The notes below the pieces were generated by a model that saw nothing but the letters and a program-made list of their open reading frames with translations, ran no database searches and was not told the DNA's origin. 64,000 nt of DNA, from NCBI GenBank assembly GCA_016212095.1, contig JACRHH010000004.1, positions 1 through 64,000 of the forward strand, in the 5' to 3' direction. Of the stretch, positions 4,538-10,353 are shown piece after piece. Each line of letters starts with the position of its first letter. Within the stretch, counting starts at the first letter, position 1. Origin of the DNA: Nitrospirota bacterium (GTDB lineage: Bacteria; Nitrospirota; Thermodesulfovibrionia; SZUA-242). The translations under genes were made by a program, and so were the position numbers.

Positions 4538-4786
4538 ATGAACAAGAAACTAACGCTTCTGCTCGACGAATCAGTCATCGAACAGGCAAAAACCTTTGCT
4601 GAACAGCACAAGGAATCTTTGTCGGGAATGGTCGAAAAGTATTTTAAATACCTTGTTTCCGGGAATCGGAATAAAGGGACAATAGCGAAAATTTCACCGG
4701 AAATTGCAGCTTTGACCGGGATAATTCACATTCCAGATGCGGTTGACATCAAGCAGGAATACCGCAAGCACCGGGCAGGCAAGTAA
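4538..4786 (+). CDS. DUF6364-type antitoxin
   Basis: This small 82-residue protein (MNKKLTLLLDESVIEQAKTFAEQH, then SLSGMVEKYFKYL) matches the ribbon-helix-helix-like DUF6364 family, whose members usually precede PIN toxins. A strong AGGAGG ribosome-binding site lies just before the ATG. Two nucleotides separate it from the PIN gene. The upstream 50 bp are AT-rich with a TATACGTATTA palindromic core, a candidate autoregulatory site. Confidence 0.75.
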   Translation: MNKKLTLLLDESVIEQAKTFAEQHKESLSGMVEKYFKYLVSGNRNKGTIAKISPEIAALTGIIHIPDAVDIKQEYRKHRAGK

Positions 4787-4788
4787 AC

Positions 4789-5217
4789 ATGAACGGCATT
4801 TTTATAGATTCCGACATATTTATAGATTTACTGGCAAAGCGGCAGCATCATATTGAAGCAGGCGAGTTGCTGATGATGATACAGGAACAAAAAGTCAAGG
4901 CATACACCACGCCGATAGTTCTTGCAAATGTCGATTACATAATCACGAAGTTCGCAAACAAGGCGGTATCAAGGAGGGCGATTAAATCGCTCCGAAAATA
5001 TGTTTCGGTGCTTACCATGGATCAGACAATAGTGGATTCAGCGCTTGAATCGGAATTTATCGACTTTGAAGATGCGATGCAATACTATTCGGCTGAAAAA
5101 CAACAGATGGATTTCATCGTGACAAGAAACAAAAAGGATTACAGGAAGGGCGATCTCAAGGTTGTAACCGCGCGCGAGTTCGTCGATATGTATTCGGCAA
5201 GGGGGAAAGATGCGTAG
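4789..5217 (+). CDS. PIN-domain ribonuclease toxin (VapC-like)
   Basis: The 142-residue product has the PIN-domain pattern of spaced acidic residues. These are IDSDIFIDLL at the N-terminus, a central Glu/Asp pair in ESEFIDFEDAMQYY, and the late DFIVTRNKKDY motif. PIN toxins are Mg-dependent RNases. It follows its DUF6364 partner by 2 bp on the plus strand. Its stop codon lies inside a perfect 26-bp palindrome (5215-5240), so the extreme C-terminus (SARGKDA) may have been altered by insertion of that repeat. Confidence 0.85.
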   Translation: MNGIFIDSDIFIDLLAKRQHHIEAGELLMMIQEQKVKAYTTPIVLANVDYIITKFANKAVSRRAIKSLRKYVSVLTMDQTIVDSALESEFIDFEDAMQYYSAEKQQMDFIVTRNKKDYRKGDLKVVTAREFVDMYSARGKDA

Positions 5218-5255: not shown

Positions 5256-5825
5256 TTACATCGACTTATGACATGCGCCGCAGTTGTCGGCATTGAACGC
5301 GGTCTTGCCGTTGTGGCATTTGCCGCAGTCCTTGCCGCTATTGATTCGATCCATCGTGATTTTGTCCACGTTGGCCTTCATCCGAAACAGGCCGCTTCTG
5401 CCGTGGCATTCGCCGCACTTGAACATTGCCGCGTGTCCCTCGTGGTTAAACGTCGCAGGCATTGCGGTAAGTTTCATGTCGATGACCTTCAGGTTATGGC
5501 ACGCCTTGCACGTTTCAGGATTCAGCGTGATGCTCTGATGCGCCTTGATGAGATGGCACTGGTTGCAGTGCAGGCCCATCTGCTTGTGTGTGTCGTGCGG
5601 GAAGCCGCCCGGCTGGCCGAAACCGGCGTGGCATCCGAAACATGGAATGCCCATGCCCTTAACAGGCGAGGCCGGTTCATCAGCCGCCTTCGCAGCCGCA
5701 GCCTTCGGGGGCGATGCATGGCCGCCGCTTGCCTCGCCGTTGGTGAGAGCGCATGAAGCGGTCATGAGGGCAAGGGCAAGCGCCGCCAGAATGCCGATTA
5801 TTGGTGTAATCGAGCGCCGGAACAC
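5256..5825 (-). CDS. six-haem c-type cytochrome, probable lipoprotein
   Basis: The 189-residue protein has a signal peptide ending in MTASC, an imperfect lipobox, which suggests a lipid-anchored periplasmic protein. Six CXXCH motifs follow (CFGCH, CNQCH, CKACH, CGECH, CGKCH, CGACH). Extra histidines (PHDTHKQ, FNHEGH) could act as distal ligands, as in cytochrome c7/c3-type folds. It is the last gene after a cytochrome b and a 7-haem cytochrome on the minus strand, only 3 bp from the former. I infer that it accepts electrons from that membrane module. The terminal acceptor is unknown. Confidence 0.88.
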   Translation of the reverse strand: MFRRSITPIIGILAALALALMTASCALTNGEASGGHASPPKAAAAKAADEPASPVKGMGIPCFGCHAGFGQPGGFPHDTHKQMGLHCNQCHLIKAHQSITLNPETCKACHNLKVIDMKLTAMPATFNHEGHAAMFKCGECHGRSGLFRMKANVDKITMDRINSGKDCGKCHNGKTAFNADNCGACHKSM

Positions 5826-5828
5826 TAT

Positions 5829-6575
5829 CTACACCTCTTTCTTTTCCGGCTTGCCTTCGCCGAAATGCAGGTCGTACTCAAGCGGATGCCTGTGCTTCAA
5901 CTCGGCGGTGGAAATCTTGCCGGTTATCCAAACCCAGCTCATCGGGAAGATCTCCGGCTTCAGATGCTCGTTGTAGAAGTGCCAGAAGAGTATGAACACA
6001 ATGGCAAGCAGCGCTTCATCGGAGTGCATTATGCCGAGCAACTGCCAGATCCAGCCGCTTGTGGATTCCGGGAACAGGCCGGAAACCAGTATCGGAAACG
6101 CAAGCGCAAACCCGGAAAAACCGATTATGAACATGCCCCAGAACACCGCCCAGTAGTCGAACTTCTGCGCGTAGCTGAATTTCGCAAACTGCGGCTTTTT
6201 CCTTGTGAATCCGAGGAAGTACATGAAGTTCTGCACCACGTCCACAATATCCTTCGGAAGCGGTATGAGCGTGGTTTCCTTGCGGAACTTGAGCTTGCCC
6301 TGCGCCGTAAGGTAGATCAGGTAGCCGACATGGAATATGAAATCCAGAAGCATGGTCACTCCGGCAACCCGGTGAATAATTCCTGCGGTTTCGGCTCCGC
6401 CCCAAATTCGTATCCACCAGCTCGACACCTCGACGTGGGCATATTTCAACCCCCAGCCTGTGAAAGACAGGATCAGGAAAGTGGTGAACATCAGCACATG
6501 CTGAATCCTGAATATCAGGTCGAACCGCTCGATCTCAGCCGGGACATCCTTAGGCACACTCATTGTATGACTCAT
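5829..6575 (-). CDS. membrane cytochrome b (formate dehydrogenase gamma/Ni-Fe hydrogenase type)
   Basis: This 248-residue integral membrane protein of the di-haem cytochrome b superfamily has hydrophobic segments with conserved histidines (FRIQHVLMFTTFLILSFTGW, IIHRVAGVTMLLDFIFHVGYL, AIVFILFWHFYNEH). I placed the start at the ATG at 6575, preceded by a GAGGAG ribosome-binding site. It overlaps the 7-haem cytochrome by 26 bp and is 3 bp from the 6-haem lipoprotein. The set resembles quinone-reactive b/c modules such as the Cbc complexes of Geobacter. The direction of electron flow cannot be told. Confidence 0.87.
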   Translation of the reverse strand: MSHTMSVPKDVPAEIERFDLIFRIQHVLMFTTFLILSFTGWGLKYAHVEVSSWWIRIWGGAETAGIIHRVAGVTMLLDFIFHVGYLIYLTAQGKLKFRKETTLIPLPKDIVDVVQNFMYFLGFTRKKPQFAKFSYAQKFDYWAVFWGMFIIGFSGFALAFPILVSGLFPESTSGWIWQLLGIMHSDEALLAIVFILFWHFYNEHLKPEIFPMSWVWITGKISTAELKHRHPLEYDLHFGEGKPEKKEV

Positions 6576-7527
6576 TTTTGGTCTCCTCCTCTTCCTCTTT
6601 CTTCCTGAAAACCACGTCGCGGATGTCGGAATATGCCTCAAGCAGCACATGGGCTATCGTAAACGCGATGGTTCCCATCGTGAGAACGATCAGGCCAAGC
6701 TCTGCGTAATGCGGAATCGGCCCGGCGGGCTTGTGCGTTATCGCGCCCACGAATGTTGCGTTCGCGCCCTTGTGGCAGTTGCCGCATGTTTTTGTCTTGT
6801 TGATGGTTCCGAAGACCGGCGACGCCGGATCGCTTTTGGACTTGATGTCGTGATAACCGTGGCAGTTCACGCAGGTTGGAGCCTTGGTATGGCCCAGCGT
6901 GTACTTCTTGCCGTGAAAGCTTTCGTTGTAGCTTTCCATGATATTCGCCTCGTGGCCGTATTTCGCCGCCAGCTTCTCGTCGGCATGGCAGTTTGCGCAG
7001 GTGGCAACCACATGTTTCCGGTTAACCGGCGAATTCTCGTCGGTTGATTTCACGATGCCGTGAGGCCCGCCGTGACAGTCGAGGCATAGCGCCCCGTCGG
7101 CTGCTCCCTTTTCAGCGATGTTTTTGCCGTGAACGCTCGTCATCACGCTCTGGTAGACATCGGAATGGCATGTGGAACATGCGCTGTAGGCAACAGGATC
7201 GACCTTCGCCTTTTTAGCTATGGTCGATGACAGCTTCTTAAGATCGTCCGCAACCGCCTGATCCGGCGCAGTGTGCGGATTTTCCGTGAACGCCTGATGG
7301 CACTCCGTGCAGGCCATTGAGCCATGCACCGAAGCCTGGAATAAATTGGAATTGATCCTGAGTTCAATCTCAGCGCCCGACGCCGTTGTTGCCTTGCCGC
7401 TCATCGCGTTGTGGCAAAGCAGGCAACTTGTGGCGTTTGCGGACGCAGTGCCGCTGCCGGTCATGCCGGGCAGGGCAATAAGCGCGAATGCCGTTAAAGC
7501 CGTTGCCAGTCTCCTCGTTTTTTTCAT
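6550..7527 (-). CDS. seven-haem c-type cytochrome with C-terminal membrane anchor
   Basis: The 325-residue protein begins with a cleavable signal peptide (MKKTRRLATALTAFALIALPG). It has seven CXXCH motifs: CLLCH, CTECH, CSTCH, CLDCH, CANCH, CVNCH and CGNCH. A single transmembrane helix near residues 278-298 (LGLIVLTMGTIAFTIAHVLL) is followed by a charged cytoplasmic tail rich in Lys and Glu. This fits a periplasmic haem domain tethered to the inner membrane beside the cytochrome b it overlaps. The long haem spacings and paired extra His residues (HGGPHG, HGYH) resemble the cytochrome c552/NapC-associated family. Confidence 0.88.
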   Translation of the reverse strand: MKKTRRLATALTAFALIALPGMTGSGTASANATSCLLCHNAMSGKATTASGAEIELRINSNLFQASVHGSMACTECHQAFTENPHTAPDQAVADDLKKLSSTIAKKAKVDPVAYSACSTCHSDVYQSVMTSVHGKNIAEKGAADGALCLDCHGGPHGIVKSTDENSPVNRKHVVATCANCHADEKLAAKYGHEANIMESYNESFHGKKYTLGHTKAPTCVNCHGYHDIKSKSDPASPVFGTINKTKTCGNCHKGANATFVGAITHKPAGPIPHYAELGLIVLTMGTIAFTIAHVLLEAYSDIRDVVFRKKEEEEETKNESYNECA

Positions 7528-7546: not shown

Positions 7547-7888
7547 CTACTTTTTTGCAGCAGCCTGAGCCGCCTTTTCAGGCGCGGGCCTCAGTGCTTC
7601 CGATACCGTATCCGTGATCCATGCCAATGTTGTTCCGAGCACCGAGCCCACAACCACGCTGACAGCCGACACGCAGACCAAACCCATTATGACGCCGACC
7701 ACCAGAAACATCCTGACGATTATGCCCGGATCAACCGGCCCTCCGCTTAGATGCGTCAGAAGAATCAGCATTCCGGCGCTTCCAAAATGAAACGCGGGAA
7801 CAATTCCGAATGCAAGAAAGATGATTCCCCCGATTGCAGCGCCGATGTTCCGGCCTGTCCTTAAAGCGTTAACCCTTTCGTCCGTCAT
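7547..7888 (-). CDS. small membrane protein A of a three-member paralogous family
   Basis: I do not recognise a named family. The 113-residue protein has about three hydrophobic helices and a GGPVDPGIIVRMFLVVGVIMG core. The same core order (G, xPV, GI, R-(M/L)-(F/I)-V) appears in the products at 7934-8254 and 8393-8965, so these are paralogues. It lies 19 bp upstream of the 7-haem cytochrome on the same strand and is probably co-transcribed with it. A membrane role supporting the cytochrome module is inferred from context only. Confidence 0.75.
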   Translation of the reverse strand: MTDERVNALRTGRNIGAAIGGIIFLAFGIVPAFHFGSAGMLILLTHLSGGPVDPGIIVRMFLVVGVIMGLVCVSAVSVVVGSVLGTTLAWITDTVSEALRPAPEKAAQAAAKK

Positions 7889-7933
7889 GATTAAGTCCCT
7901 CCTTCCAGGATTTTGCTTGAACCGATCAAACGA

Positions 7934-8254
7934 TCAGTGTTTTTCAGCCTTCACGGCATCCTTCAACGCGGCTGCCCGCGCCGCGTCCACAATGTAACCC
8001 GCCGCCCATCCAAGCGTTGCGCCCGCAACGGTGAAGAGCAGCCCAGTCACCATGACGCCGACAAGCATCGATACCGCAACGATCATTCGTGCCGCTATGC
8101 CGTCGTCAACAGGATAACCAAGCAGGGTTCCGGCGATGCTCAAGCCCATCACGCCACCAAGAAACGAGCCGCGCAACAATCCGAACACCGCAAACAGCAG
8201 AAGCCCTGCCCCAGCGCCTGAGTACATCAGTTTTCCTCTCATTGTTCCCTTCAT
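7934..8254 (-). CDS. small membrane protein B of the same paralogous family
   Basis: This 106-residue hydrophobic protein has three predicted helices and the core GAGAGLLLFAVFGLLRGSF, GGVMGLSIAGTLLG, then PVDDGIAARMIVAVSMLVG. It is clearly related to the N-terminal half of the PilZ-tailed protein encoded upstream (GAGAGLTAFFLFGF, SFLGGIMGINLAG). I chose the ATG at 8254, which has an AGGAACC ribosome-binding site, over longer readings. A sigma-54-type promoter lies 40-55 bp upstream. Its function is unknown. Confidence 0.78.
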   Translation of the reverse strand: MKGTMRGKLMYSGAGAGLLLFAVFGLLRGSFLGGVMGLSIAGTLLGYPVDDGIAARMIVAVSMLVGVMVTGLLFTVAGATLGWAAGYIVDAARAAALKDAVKAEKH

Positions 8255-8291
8255 CGCAGGTTCCTCCTTTATACTTGGCTGCCCTGATGAT

Positions 8292-8308
8292 TGCAGTTTT
8301 AGTGCCAA
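8292..8308 (-). promoter_or_regulatory. putative sigma-54 promoter upstream of small membrane gene B
   Basis: On the minus strand the sequence reads TTGGCAC, five bases, then CTGCA. The invariant GG and GC are separated by exactly 10 nt, as in -24/-12 promoters. A start site near 8281 would leave a leader of about 27 nt before the ATG at 8254. A 7934-8254, 7547-7888, 6550-7527, 5829-6575, 5256-5825 transcription unit would follow. Confidence 0.6.
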
Positions 8309-8392
8309 GCCAATCGCATTGATAAATAATGGTTTATTGGCTTTTGATGATTGCAATGACGCGAATTCGTTTGCAGTTTTGCGAAACAGGAA

Positions 8393-8965
8393 CTAATTGA
8401 AATGAAATCCGGCGCGGAAAGTCCTGCCGTCATTGCTTGTCCAGGCCACTTTCATGGAGCCGCGCGCCGAATCGCGCTTCGAGGGGCAGATGCAGTTGAC
8501 AACATCGCCCTGATTGATTGCGATGGCAGAGCTGAAGACAAGCCCGACTCCGCTTTCGGAAATGTCAACAAGGCTTGCCTCATAGATTGCGCCCATGGAC
8601 ATTACCTTCACTTCCGCCGTATCCCGTGAACGGCTGAAACGTCTGCGTTCGGCGTATTTGTCGGCCTTCTCGGCCTTGCCTCTCCACAATGTCATTGCGT
8701 GAACCGCGTCCAGAGCCTCGCCAACAACCCGCCCGGCTGCCGTTCCGGCAAGTGTGAACATTGTTGCGGACAGCACAATCCCTCCAAGCATGGATAACGA
8801 AACAATCAGGCGCGGAAATATGCCGCTATTCACCGGAAAGCCGAACAGTGCTCCGGCAAGGTTAATTCCCATGATGCCGCCCAGAAAGGAAAAATGCAGA
8901 AATCCGAACAAAAAAAATGCGGTAAGCCCTGCTCCCGCTCCGACATACGATGCCAGTTCCTTCAT
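8393..8965 (-). CDS. small membrane protein C fused to a PilZ (c-di-GMP-binding) domain
   Basis: Residues 1-90 of this 190-residue protein are homologous to proteins A and B (GAGAGL, SFLGGIMG, GFPVNSGIFPRLIVSLSMLGG). Residues about 105-190 form a PilZ domain with the arginine-rich ERRRFSRSR switch, the DISESGVG motif (the D/NxSxxG signature) and a closing SMKVAWTSN...FRAGFHF strand pattern. Proteins with these motifs bind cyclic di-GMP. I infer a membrane sensor whose partner family is encoded next to it within a cytochrome cluster. It has its own sigma-54-like promoter. To my knowledge this fusion is not a named architecture. Confidence 0.8.
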   Translation of the reverse strand: MKELASYVGAGAGLTAFFLFGFLHFSFLGGIMGINLAGALFGFPVNSGIFPRLIVSLSMLGGIVLSATMFTLAGTAAGRVVGEALDAVHAMTLWRGKAEKADKYAERRRFSRSRDTAEVKVMSMGAIYEASLVDISESGVGLVFSSAIAINQGDVVNCICPSKRDSARGSMKVAWTSNDGRTFRAGFHFN

Positions 8966-9012
8966 TTCCGCTGTCTCCCTGTTTTTGTTGATTCAGATAA
9001 TGGATGGCATAG

Positions 9013-9028
9013 GCACGTTTGATGCCAA
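9013..9028 (-). promoter_or_regulatory. putative sigma-54 promoter upstream of the PilZ-tailed gene
   Basis: The minus strand reads TTGGCAT, five bases, then CGTGC, with 10 nt between GG and GC. The -24 half is good, but the -12 half deviates from TTGC. It lies about 40-60 bp upstream of the ATG at 8965. The remaining 9029-9186 stretch shows a GGATAAC/GTTATCC inverted pair but no gene. Confidence 0.45.
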
Positions 9029-9186
9029 GGGATAACCAAATCGGTGAATAGCTTATTTATCGTGTTATATCGTAGAGTTATCCATCTTGACATAACTCTT
9101 TGCTTTACATGGCGCACTACGTTGAATTGCCGCGTATTTCGCGATTGTGCGAATTCAATTCGCGGCCATGCGAAAAAACGGGAGAA

Positions 9187-10029
9187 TTAATAGACGAATG
9201 AGCCGGGATTCTTTAAGGCGTGACAGCGGTCGCACAGGCCCTTGGCCGCCTGTTTGCCTATGACCCAGGAATGCGGCTTGTGACATGCCATGCATTCCAT
9301 CTTGACACGCTCAAGATGCTTGCCGTGCAGCCCGGCCTTGACCTCGTTGCCGTGGCATGAGCCGAGGCAGTCCTTGCTTTCCATTTTCATGCGCTGATGT
9401 GGATGGTGGCATTCGTAACACTCAAGATGCGACATCACGCCCTTGCGCGGCACATCGCCGTGGCACTCGAAGCACTTTGAGCTTGTCACCAGCTTCTTTG
9501 CGTTCTCGCCGAAGCCGTGACAGGTGAGGCAATAAAGCCCGGCGGTTCCCATGCCGTGAACGGTCTTGTCGCTGTGGCACTTCTGGCAGCGCGACTGATC
9601 GGGCTTGAAGGCGTGCGATCCTCCCGCATGGCATTCGCGGCATGAAAGATTCCGCATGAACACATGGCGGGCGTGGCCGTATGACACCCTGAGCGTGAGC
9701 GAGCCTTGCGCCGCATCCTGAAGGTGGCACTTCACGCAGCCGTCCCACGGGCGAAGACGTCCGTGCGTCTGGCTGACATGGGTGACGTTTCCGGCGACAA
9801 AGGCAACCAGCAGGCGGTTCTCCTCAAGCAGGCTGATCTCATGACAGTGCTGGCAGAGTATCTGGTTATGCCTGCTTGTGCTCCACGACTTGTATCCCTC
9901 CTGCATGAGGTGGCATAGCGAGCAGAAATCCGGGTCTTTCTGCGTGTAGTCGTAATAGCGCTTTCCCGCTATCGCGGCCAGAGCGCAGACAAGAAGCACC
10001 AGAATGAGTATGCCGCCCTTCCCCTTCAT
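9187..10029 (-). CDS. undeca-haem-type periplasmic cytochrome c with N-terminal anchor
   Basis: The 280-residue protein has an N-terminal hydrophobic anchor (GGILILVLLVCALAAIAG). A NapC/NirT-like opening follows, with haem motifs CSLCH and CQHCH near residues 36-62. In all there are ten CXXCH motifs and one CX3CH variant (CLGSCH). Dispersed histidines (GHARH, SHAF, HPHQR, HGKHLE) are candidate distal ligands. It lies 13 bp downstream of a small membrane protein gene, with a sigma-70-like promoter before both. I infer an electron conduit between the quinone pool and periplasmic acceptors. The exact haem number depends on whether the CX3CH site binds haem. Confidence 0.85.
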   Translation of the reverse strand: MKGKGGILILVLLVCALAAIAGKRYYDYTQKDPDFCSLCHLMQEGYKSWSTSRHNQILCQHCHEISLLEENRLLVAFVAGNVTHVSQTHGRLRPWDGCVKCHLQDAAQGSLTLRVSYGHARHVFMRNLSCRECHAGGSHAFKPDQSRCQKCHSDKTVHGMGTAGLYCLTCHGFGENAKKLVTSSKCFECHGDVPRKGVMSHLECYECHHPHQRMKMESKDCLGSCHGNEVKAGLHGKHLERVKMECMACHKPHSWVIGKQAAKGLCDRCHALKNPGSFVY

Positions 10030-10041
10030 GCGGTCTGCCTG

Positions 10042-10353
10042 TTAATGCTTGTCCTCTCCCATGAATTTAAGAAAACGGTATATGAATACCGATCCGGCGG
10101 CGCCGAAAAATCCGCCGATTGCCGCAAGCGCCAGAAGAATAAGCAGGAAAAAAATGTAAACGATGAAGCTGTCCGGCGAGAAAGTGGAATGGAAAAGCTT
10201 GCCGATATCTTTTGCGATGGCATCGCGCCATGTCCCCTTTAGTGTGTCGGCGTATACCGAGTCCATCAACAGGGCAACGGCCACGCTCAGGATTGCTCCC
10301 GCGCCGGAACCGATAAGAAAGAATTTTTTAGCCTTGTTAGTCTGCTTGCCCAT
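10042..10353 (-). CDS. small membrane protein preceding the 11-haem cytochrome
   Basis: I do not recognise this 103-residue protein. It has an N-terminal helix (FFLIGSGAGAILSVAVALLM), a soluble 35-residue loop with TWRDAIAKDIGKLF, and a second helix (IVYIFFLLILLALAAIGGFFGAAG), ending in a charged tail. The GSGAGA stretch near the first helix faintly resembles the paralogous family downstream, but I would not assign it to that family. It starts the transcription unit and ends 12 bp before the cytochrome, so a role in that complex is inferred. Confidence 0.7.
   Translation of the reverse strand: MGKQTNKAKKFFLIGSGAGAILSVAVALLMDSVYADTLKGTWRDAIAKDIGKLFHSTFSPDSFIVYIFFLLILLALAAIGGFFGAAGSVFIYRFLKFMGEDKH

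Follow-up and report, generated by a model that had tools for sequence, protein, structure and literature searches.

Organization of the locus

Three small membrane-protein genes, referred to here as A, B and C, lie on the minus strand within a cytochrome gene cluster of the window (the whole stretch of 64,000 nucleotides that was analysed). An earlier note, made from this sequence alone, had placed three open reading frames here between a seven-haem and an 11-haem cytochrome. All three proved to be real genes at the proposed coordinates, flanked as described. In the direction of transcription the order is D, NapC-type 11-haem cytochrome, C, B, A, heptahaem cytochrome, cytochrome b and hexahaem c7-type cytochrome. 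The features are as follows.

5256–5825, minus strand: hexahaem c7-type cytochrome (haem motifs, domain searches)
5829–6650, minus strand: CbcB-like cytochrome b (PF01292; homologues suggest a start near 6566)
6550–7527, minus strand: CbcA-like membrane-bound heptahaem cytochrome c (PF09699, PF14522, CXXCH count)
7547–7888, minus strand: A, an A-clade hairpin membrane protein, 113 aa (homology, tree)
7934–8254, minus strand: B, a B-clade hairpin membrane protein, 106 aa (homology, tree, AlphaFold2)
8292–8307, minus strand: sigma-54 −24/−12 element of B, TGGCACTAAAACTGCA
8370–8385, minus strand: palindrome (putative upstream activating sequence) of B, TTCGCAAAACTGCAAA, 78 bp upstream of the −24 element
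8393–8965, minus strand: C, a B-type hairpin domain (residues 1 to ~100) with a C-terminal PilZ domain (106–189), 190 aa (PF07238, homology, tree)
9012–9027, minus strand: sigma-54-like element of C, TGGCATCAAACGTGCC, weak
9138–9153, minus strand: weak palindrome upstream of C, TTCGCACAATCGCGAA
9159–9174, minus strand: second weak palindrome upstream of C, TTCGCATGGCCGCGAA, 21 bp from the first
9187–10029, minus strand: NapC/NrfH-anchored 11-haem cytochrome (PF03264, haem motifs)
10042–10353, minus strand: D, a small membrane protein, 103 aa, adjoining a kinase/response-regulator pair in relatives

The heptahaem cytochrome has seven CXXCH motifs and a hydrophobic C-terminal segment, and it matches the doubled CXXCH motif family PF09699 at 33.3 bits (cut-off 20.6). 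The CbcB-like protein matches PF01292 at 41.0 bits (cut-off 30.1), and its gene is also found next to CbcA in relatives. The 11-haem protein carries 10 CXXCH motifs and one CX3CH motif. Its match to PF03264 is marginal (24.7 bits vs 24.1), and the cut-off of the NrfH equivalog was not reached.

Pairwise tests and shuffles bore out the proposed paralogy of the three products, which in C covers the first 105 residues. B and C share 48% identity (E about 1e-25) and A and B 30% (E 4e-8), while A matches C with an E-value of 2e-5; for every pair, the observed score was reached by none of 2000 shuffles. The core motif ascribed to all three products was slightly overstated. It is present in B (YPVDDGI..RMIV) and C (FPVNSGI..RLIV), but A has GPVDPGI..RMFL. 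D was considered as a fourth paralogue and ruled out, its similarity to A, B and C in pairwise tests not being convincing.

A family of helical-hairpin membrane proteins

By sequence comparison, the hairpin part of A, B and C is an undescribed family of membrane proteins of about 105 residues, divided into clades A and B. Searches of Pfam, NCBIfam and PDB sequences with the membrane part, which might have belonged to a known unrelated family, returned no family that describes it, and a fold search of the hairpin in the PDB gave nothing significant. Besides PilZ, weak matches of single members to TctB, Oleosin, OsmB, DUF3561 and ssl2009 were seen among 40 members; these stray matches are not convincing. 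A profile built from the 40 members detected the family in 88 of the 396 genomes that made up the phylum sample. Scans of genome contigs with C and with B as queries gave no confirmed relative, and tblastn against plasmids gave no match.

In a tree of 145 members, clades A (62) and B (83) are each coherent and cleanly separated under midpoint rooting. The commonest unit is a gene pair, B then A. Invariant residues are mostly glycines (G13, G17, G25, G46 and G66), together with F21, and R56 is nearly invariant. AlphaFold2 modelled B as a two-helix hairpin (residues 5–45 and 53–105; mean pLDDT 88). Each helix, at about 40–50 residues, exceeds what a bilayer needs. A proline occupies position 28 in 36 of 40 members, and a further proline lies in the turn. 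Because positive charge is found at the N-terminus and in the tail behind the second helix, the two ends of the protein are tentatively placed in the cytoplasm, which would put the PilZ head of C there as well; helices longer than the bilayer make this placement less certain.

The window genome holds a paralogous array on another contig (L056:9340-13640, G000:C11) in the order DUF4079, A, B, A, with two composite promoter sites (palindrome plus sigma-54 element, described below). The two A copies on this contig are almost identical, and the array adjoins complex-I/hydrogenase-like subunit genes on the opposite strand.

A shared sigma-54 promoter and palindrome

Two sigma-54-like sites had been reported at the locus. 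Both are present, one before B and a weaker one before C, and such sites are far above chance in relatives. A strong −24/−12 element at a nearly fixed distance precedes 67 of 77 first genes of family units, compared with 32 of 720 control genes (4%), the controls being other genes in the same loci. Upstream of it, the palindrome TTTGCA-N4-TGCAAA, with at most two mismatches, was found in 64 of 70 upstream regions against about 0.9 in shuffles. It starts 49–51, 57–60, 77–80 or 88–90 bp upstream of the −24 element, i.e., on one face of the DNA. The shared sigma-54 promoter and palindrome, as the general control of the family, are the strongest result of this analysis and extend beyond the focus of the earlier note.

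The composite site occurs in 68 of the 396 genomes, and the reversed pattern gave a handful of matches. In the 2.97 Mb window genome, the strict palindrome TTYGCA-N4-TGCRAA has three sites, each upstream of a hairpin unit and one of them that of B; the chance expectation is about 0.7, an estimate that assumes equal base frequencies. A looser palindrome pattern taken alone has 19 sites in this genome, with no genome-wide enrichment. Among the fetched loci, composites lie before hairpin genes in 63 cases and at contig ends in 10, and the remainder precede cbcA (3), nrfD (1), a kinase gene (1) and other genes or none (7). These loci were mostly picked for hairpins, and only the 396-genome composite count is unbiased. 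About a dozen fetched CbcBA loci lacking hairpins have no composite site.

The promoter and palindromes of C are weak and off the usual positions, and the palindromes lie farther upstream than those of a second PilZ fusion found in G001, a sister genus within the same family as the window organism. Sigma-54-like matches 57 bp before D in relatives were set aside: in those genomes D comes immediately after the regulator gene, and the sites seem to fall inside the regulator's coding sequence.

At loci L247–L256 and L259–L262 (genomes G053, G288, G047, G294, G283, G311, G238, G389, G244 and G155), the contigs stop within about 350 bp past a composite promoter, a pattern expected if the assemblies broke at hairpin units present in several near-identical copies. 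In G182 (L245:4831-5380, partly N), where genes for ResB and cytochrome c assembly lie downstream, no more than about 100 bp separate a composite promoter from a hairpin with a T run that looks like a terminator; a small RNA is possible there.

Candidate activator

A dCache histidine kinase, an NtrC-type sigma-54 response regulator and D adjoin many of the clusters. The clade of this regulator is set apart in score (at least 97 bits vs at most 87 for the next), and its recognition helix is near-invariant, reading DLATLYRK and rarely DLVTLYRK or DIATLYRK. It was found in 78 of 88 genomes with the hairpin family and in 9 of 308 without it, counts that ignore shared ancestry; 10 family-bearing genomes lack it at the cut-off used. 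Of the 68 site-bearing genomes, 62 have it. This co-occurrence, together with the adjacency, makes the NtrC-type regulator the likely activator of the palindrome-bearing promoters.

In the window genome, the regulator orthologue and a dCache-PAS kinase are encoded on contig C14, unlinked to the locus, and in G001 the regulator/kinase pair lies beside NapC and D. The regulator gene nearest the paralogous array (L056) was set aside as a candidate, as it falls outside the clade, whereas the one on C14 falls inside. In another genome, a composite promoter (L061:9531, minus strand) lies 156 bp before the histidine kinase gene, and the two-component system may regulate itself there. A literature search for a Geobacter regulator named BccR gave no match.

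The palindrome resembles the Vibrio LuxO site, TTGCAWWWTGCAA (PMC10162802). As with NtrC-type sigma-54 regulators such as LuxO/SypG, the same core half-site is arranged as a palindrome, the promoter is sigma-54-dependent in type and the activator carries a REC domain. Here, in contrast, the spacer is one base longer, and the system belongs to another phylum, has a dCache kinase as partner and would act on respiratory targets.

Linkage to electron-transfer modules

In Geobacter sulfurreducens, adjacent genes encode the membrane-bound heptahaem cytochrome CbcA (PF09699) and the b-type cytochrome CbcB (PF01292) (PMC7726332). Cbc5, a set of five genes, also comprises additional c-type cytochromes and a single membrane protein, CbcE (PMC11434368), and CbcBA operates near −0.2 V (PMC12307469). 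The window pair is like Cbc5/CbcBA (GSU0590–0594) in its heptahaem PF09699 CbcA and adjacent PF01292 CbcB, but the window has in addition two to three hairpins, the PilZ fusion and protein D. By domain families and adjacency, the window cytochromes fit a menaquinol:cytochrome c module of the Geobacter Cbc5/CbcBA type, with the activity being predicted. The earlier author knew of no described system in which c-di-GMP controls such a module. The hairpin family is undescribed; the cytochrome part is of the known Cbc5/CbcBA type.

B and A recur beside CbcA-like, CbcB-like, c7-type and NapC-type cytochromes, and the canonical cluster, seen in L264, runs D–NapC–site–B–A–CbcA–CbcB–c7–RR–HK. B hairpins also precede NrfD, 4Fe-4S and c-type cytochrome genes in about ten relatives. 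These NrfD/FeS/multihaem modules, which we take to be comparable to Cbc4, Qrc and Dsr-like ones, are absent at the window locus, however. At two loci (L151:4543-5676 and L145:4596-5732), a signal-peptide-like protein (377–378 aa) has a composite site before it and an NrfD module upstream.

The membrane part does not always neighbour multihaem cytochromes. A multihaem gene lies within 5 kb in 18 of 41 family loci with full flanks, compared with 2 of 19 background windows. Constant adjacency was rejected, with about half of the family loci having no cytochrome gene within 5 kb. As such loci exist, and the dozen or so fetched CbcBA loci without hairpins are free of the site, the partnership of hairpins and cytochromes is not one-to-one. 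At the genome level, the family was found in 62 of 69 genomes with a strong CbcB and in 26 of 327 without (phylum sample, shared ancestry ignored). The loss of gene linkage in other genomes, which had been named as evidence against the association, was thus seen in part for adjacency, while the shared promoter was kept. Recurrent gene order, genome-level co-occurrence and the shared promoter architecture all tie the family to an electron-transfer module.

The PilZ fusion

C is the only one of the three products with a PilZ domain, as first noted (PF07238, E 1.6e-9; 38.5 bits against a gathering cut-off of 22.5). Like known PilZ c-di-GMP receptors, it has both binding motifs intact, RRFSR (RxxxR) and DISESG (DxSxxG); unlike them, it sits on a B-type hairpin anchor of an undescribed family. 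Only two of about 150 family ORFs have such a tail, C and the one in G001 (37.7 bits), and R108, R112, D134, S136 and G139 are identical in both. The two fusions form one clade within B (support 0.90), and both carry a sigma-54 element; the G001 fusion has two near-perfect palindromes 20 bp apart in addition to its sigma-54 site. From the tree and the domain searches, the PilZ tail is a single, lineage-specific fusion onto a B-type hairpin in two genera and not the defining feature of the family. The AlphaFold2 model of full-length C (pLDDT 64) was too poor for use.

The window genome encodes 11 GGDEF and seven PilZ domains, so c-di-GMP signalling exists in this organism. In Geobacter metallireducens, c-di-GMP levels are reported to affect extracellular electron transfer genes (PMC12285248). 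The proposal of c-di-GMP control over an electron-transfer module stood as regards the module linkage and a PilZ domain with intact motifs, but the fusion is confined to one clade in two genera. Such control is plausible as, at most, a local, lineage-specific add-on.

Proposed mechanism and alternatives

A, B and C are read here as paired hairpin inner-membrane proteins of one sigma-54 respiratory programme, accessory to quinone–cytochrome complexes and, in this organism, tunable by c-di-GMP; a probability of about 0.5 is assigned to this reading. A membrane histidine kinase (dCache, here also PAS) would sense an extracytoplasmic condition and phosphorylate the NtrC-type regulator. The regulator would then bind the palindrome, present once or twice on a single DNA face ahead of the −24 element, and open the sigma-54 promoters. 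Under the control of these promoters would be the hairpin genes plus a menaquinol–cytochrome module whose type, CbcBA or NrfD/FeS, varies between genomes. Conserved glycines run along both helices of the A and B hairpins, which probably pair and serve as accessory partners of the menaquinol–cytochrome complexes in the inner membrane. One B copy appears to have gained a cytoplasmic PilZ head, which could let c-di-GMP adjust how the machinery is assembled or where it is placed.

The hairpins might instead not be partners of the cytochromes but serve general membrane adaptation (membrane shaping, intracytoplasmic membrane or lipid packing), with the same sigma-54 regulator inducing them at the onset of low-potential respiration. 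Family units often stand alone yet keep the promoter, the long helices with their prolines would suit such a role, one member weakly matches Oleosin (E 0.0027), and Geobacter forms intracytoplasmic membranes when the anode potential is low, through an as yet unexplained mechanism (PMC10082016). Nevertheless, the Oleosin match is single and weak, the PDB fold search gave no match, and the recurrent gene order with CbcA/CbcB and NrfD modules suggests closer coupling; this explanation is considered unlikely. A doubtful but somewhat stronger contender concerns C alone: its PilZ head may serve another process, such as motility or polysaccharide production, with only the anchor and promoter being common. 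The fusion is lineage-specific, the G001 copy (L057) has aminotransferase and ferredoxin-type genes rather than cytochromes as neighbours on its short contig, and the many GGDEF and PilZ domains allow many c-di-GMP outputs. In the window, however, C is inside the cytochrome cluster, and both fusions have the promoter architecture of the regulon.

It is quite unlikely that some activator other than the often-adjacent NtrC-type regulator recognizes the palindrome. Six site-bearing genomes lack the regulator clade at the cut-off used, and its gene is unlinked in the window genome; on the other side stand its presence in the great majority of site-bearing genomes, the near-invariant recognition helix and the composite site before the kinase gene in L061. 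A more speculative version is regarded as a long shot. Under the sigma-54 two-component programme, paired hairpins would adapt the inner membrane to low-energy respiration by reshaping or packing it around quinone–cytochrome complexes; in one lineage the packing would be under the direct influence of c-di-GMP via the PilZ-headed hairpin.

The promoter analysis defines a regulon that can be tested, with an exact promoter code, for electron-transfer modules of the Geobacter type; the phylum concerned is known mainly through genomes, and an undescribed, widespread membrane-protein family is joined to the regulon. Should the hairpins be partners or membrane organisers, they would represent a missing component of inner-membrane electron transfer, and the PilZ fusion provides a direct molecular test of how c-di-GMP could reach respiration. 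Elsewhere in the window, two gene pairs (2121–2743 and 4538–5217) resemble toxin–antitoxin modules (MazF-like, PIN-like), as judged from their translations.
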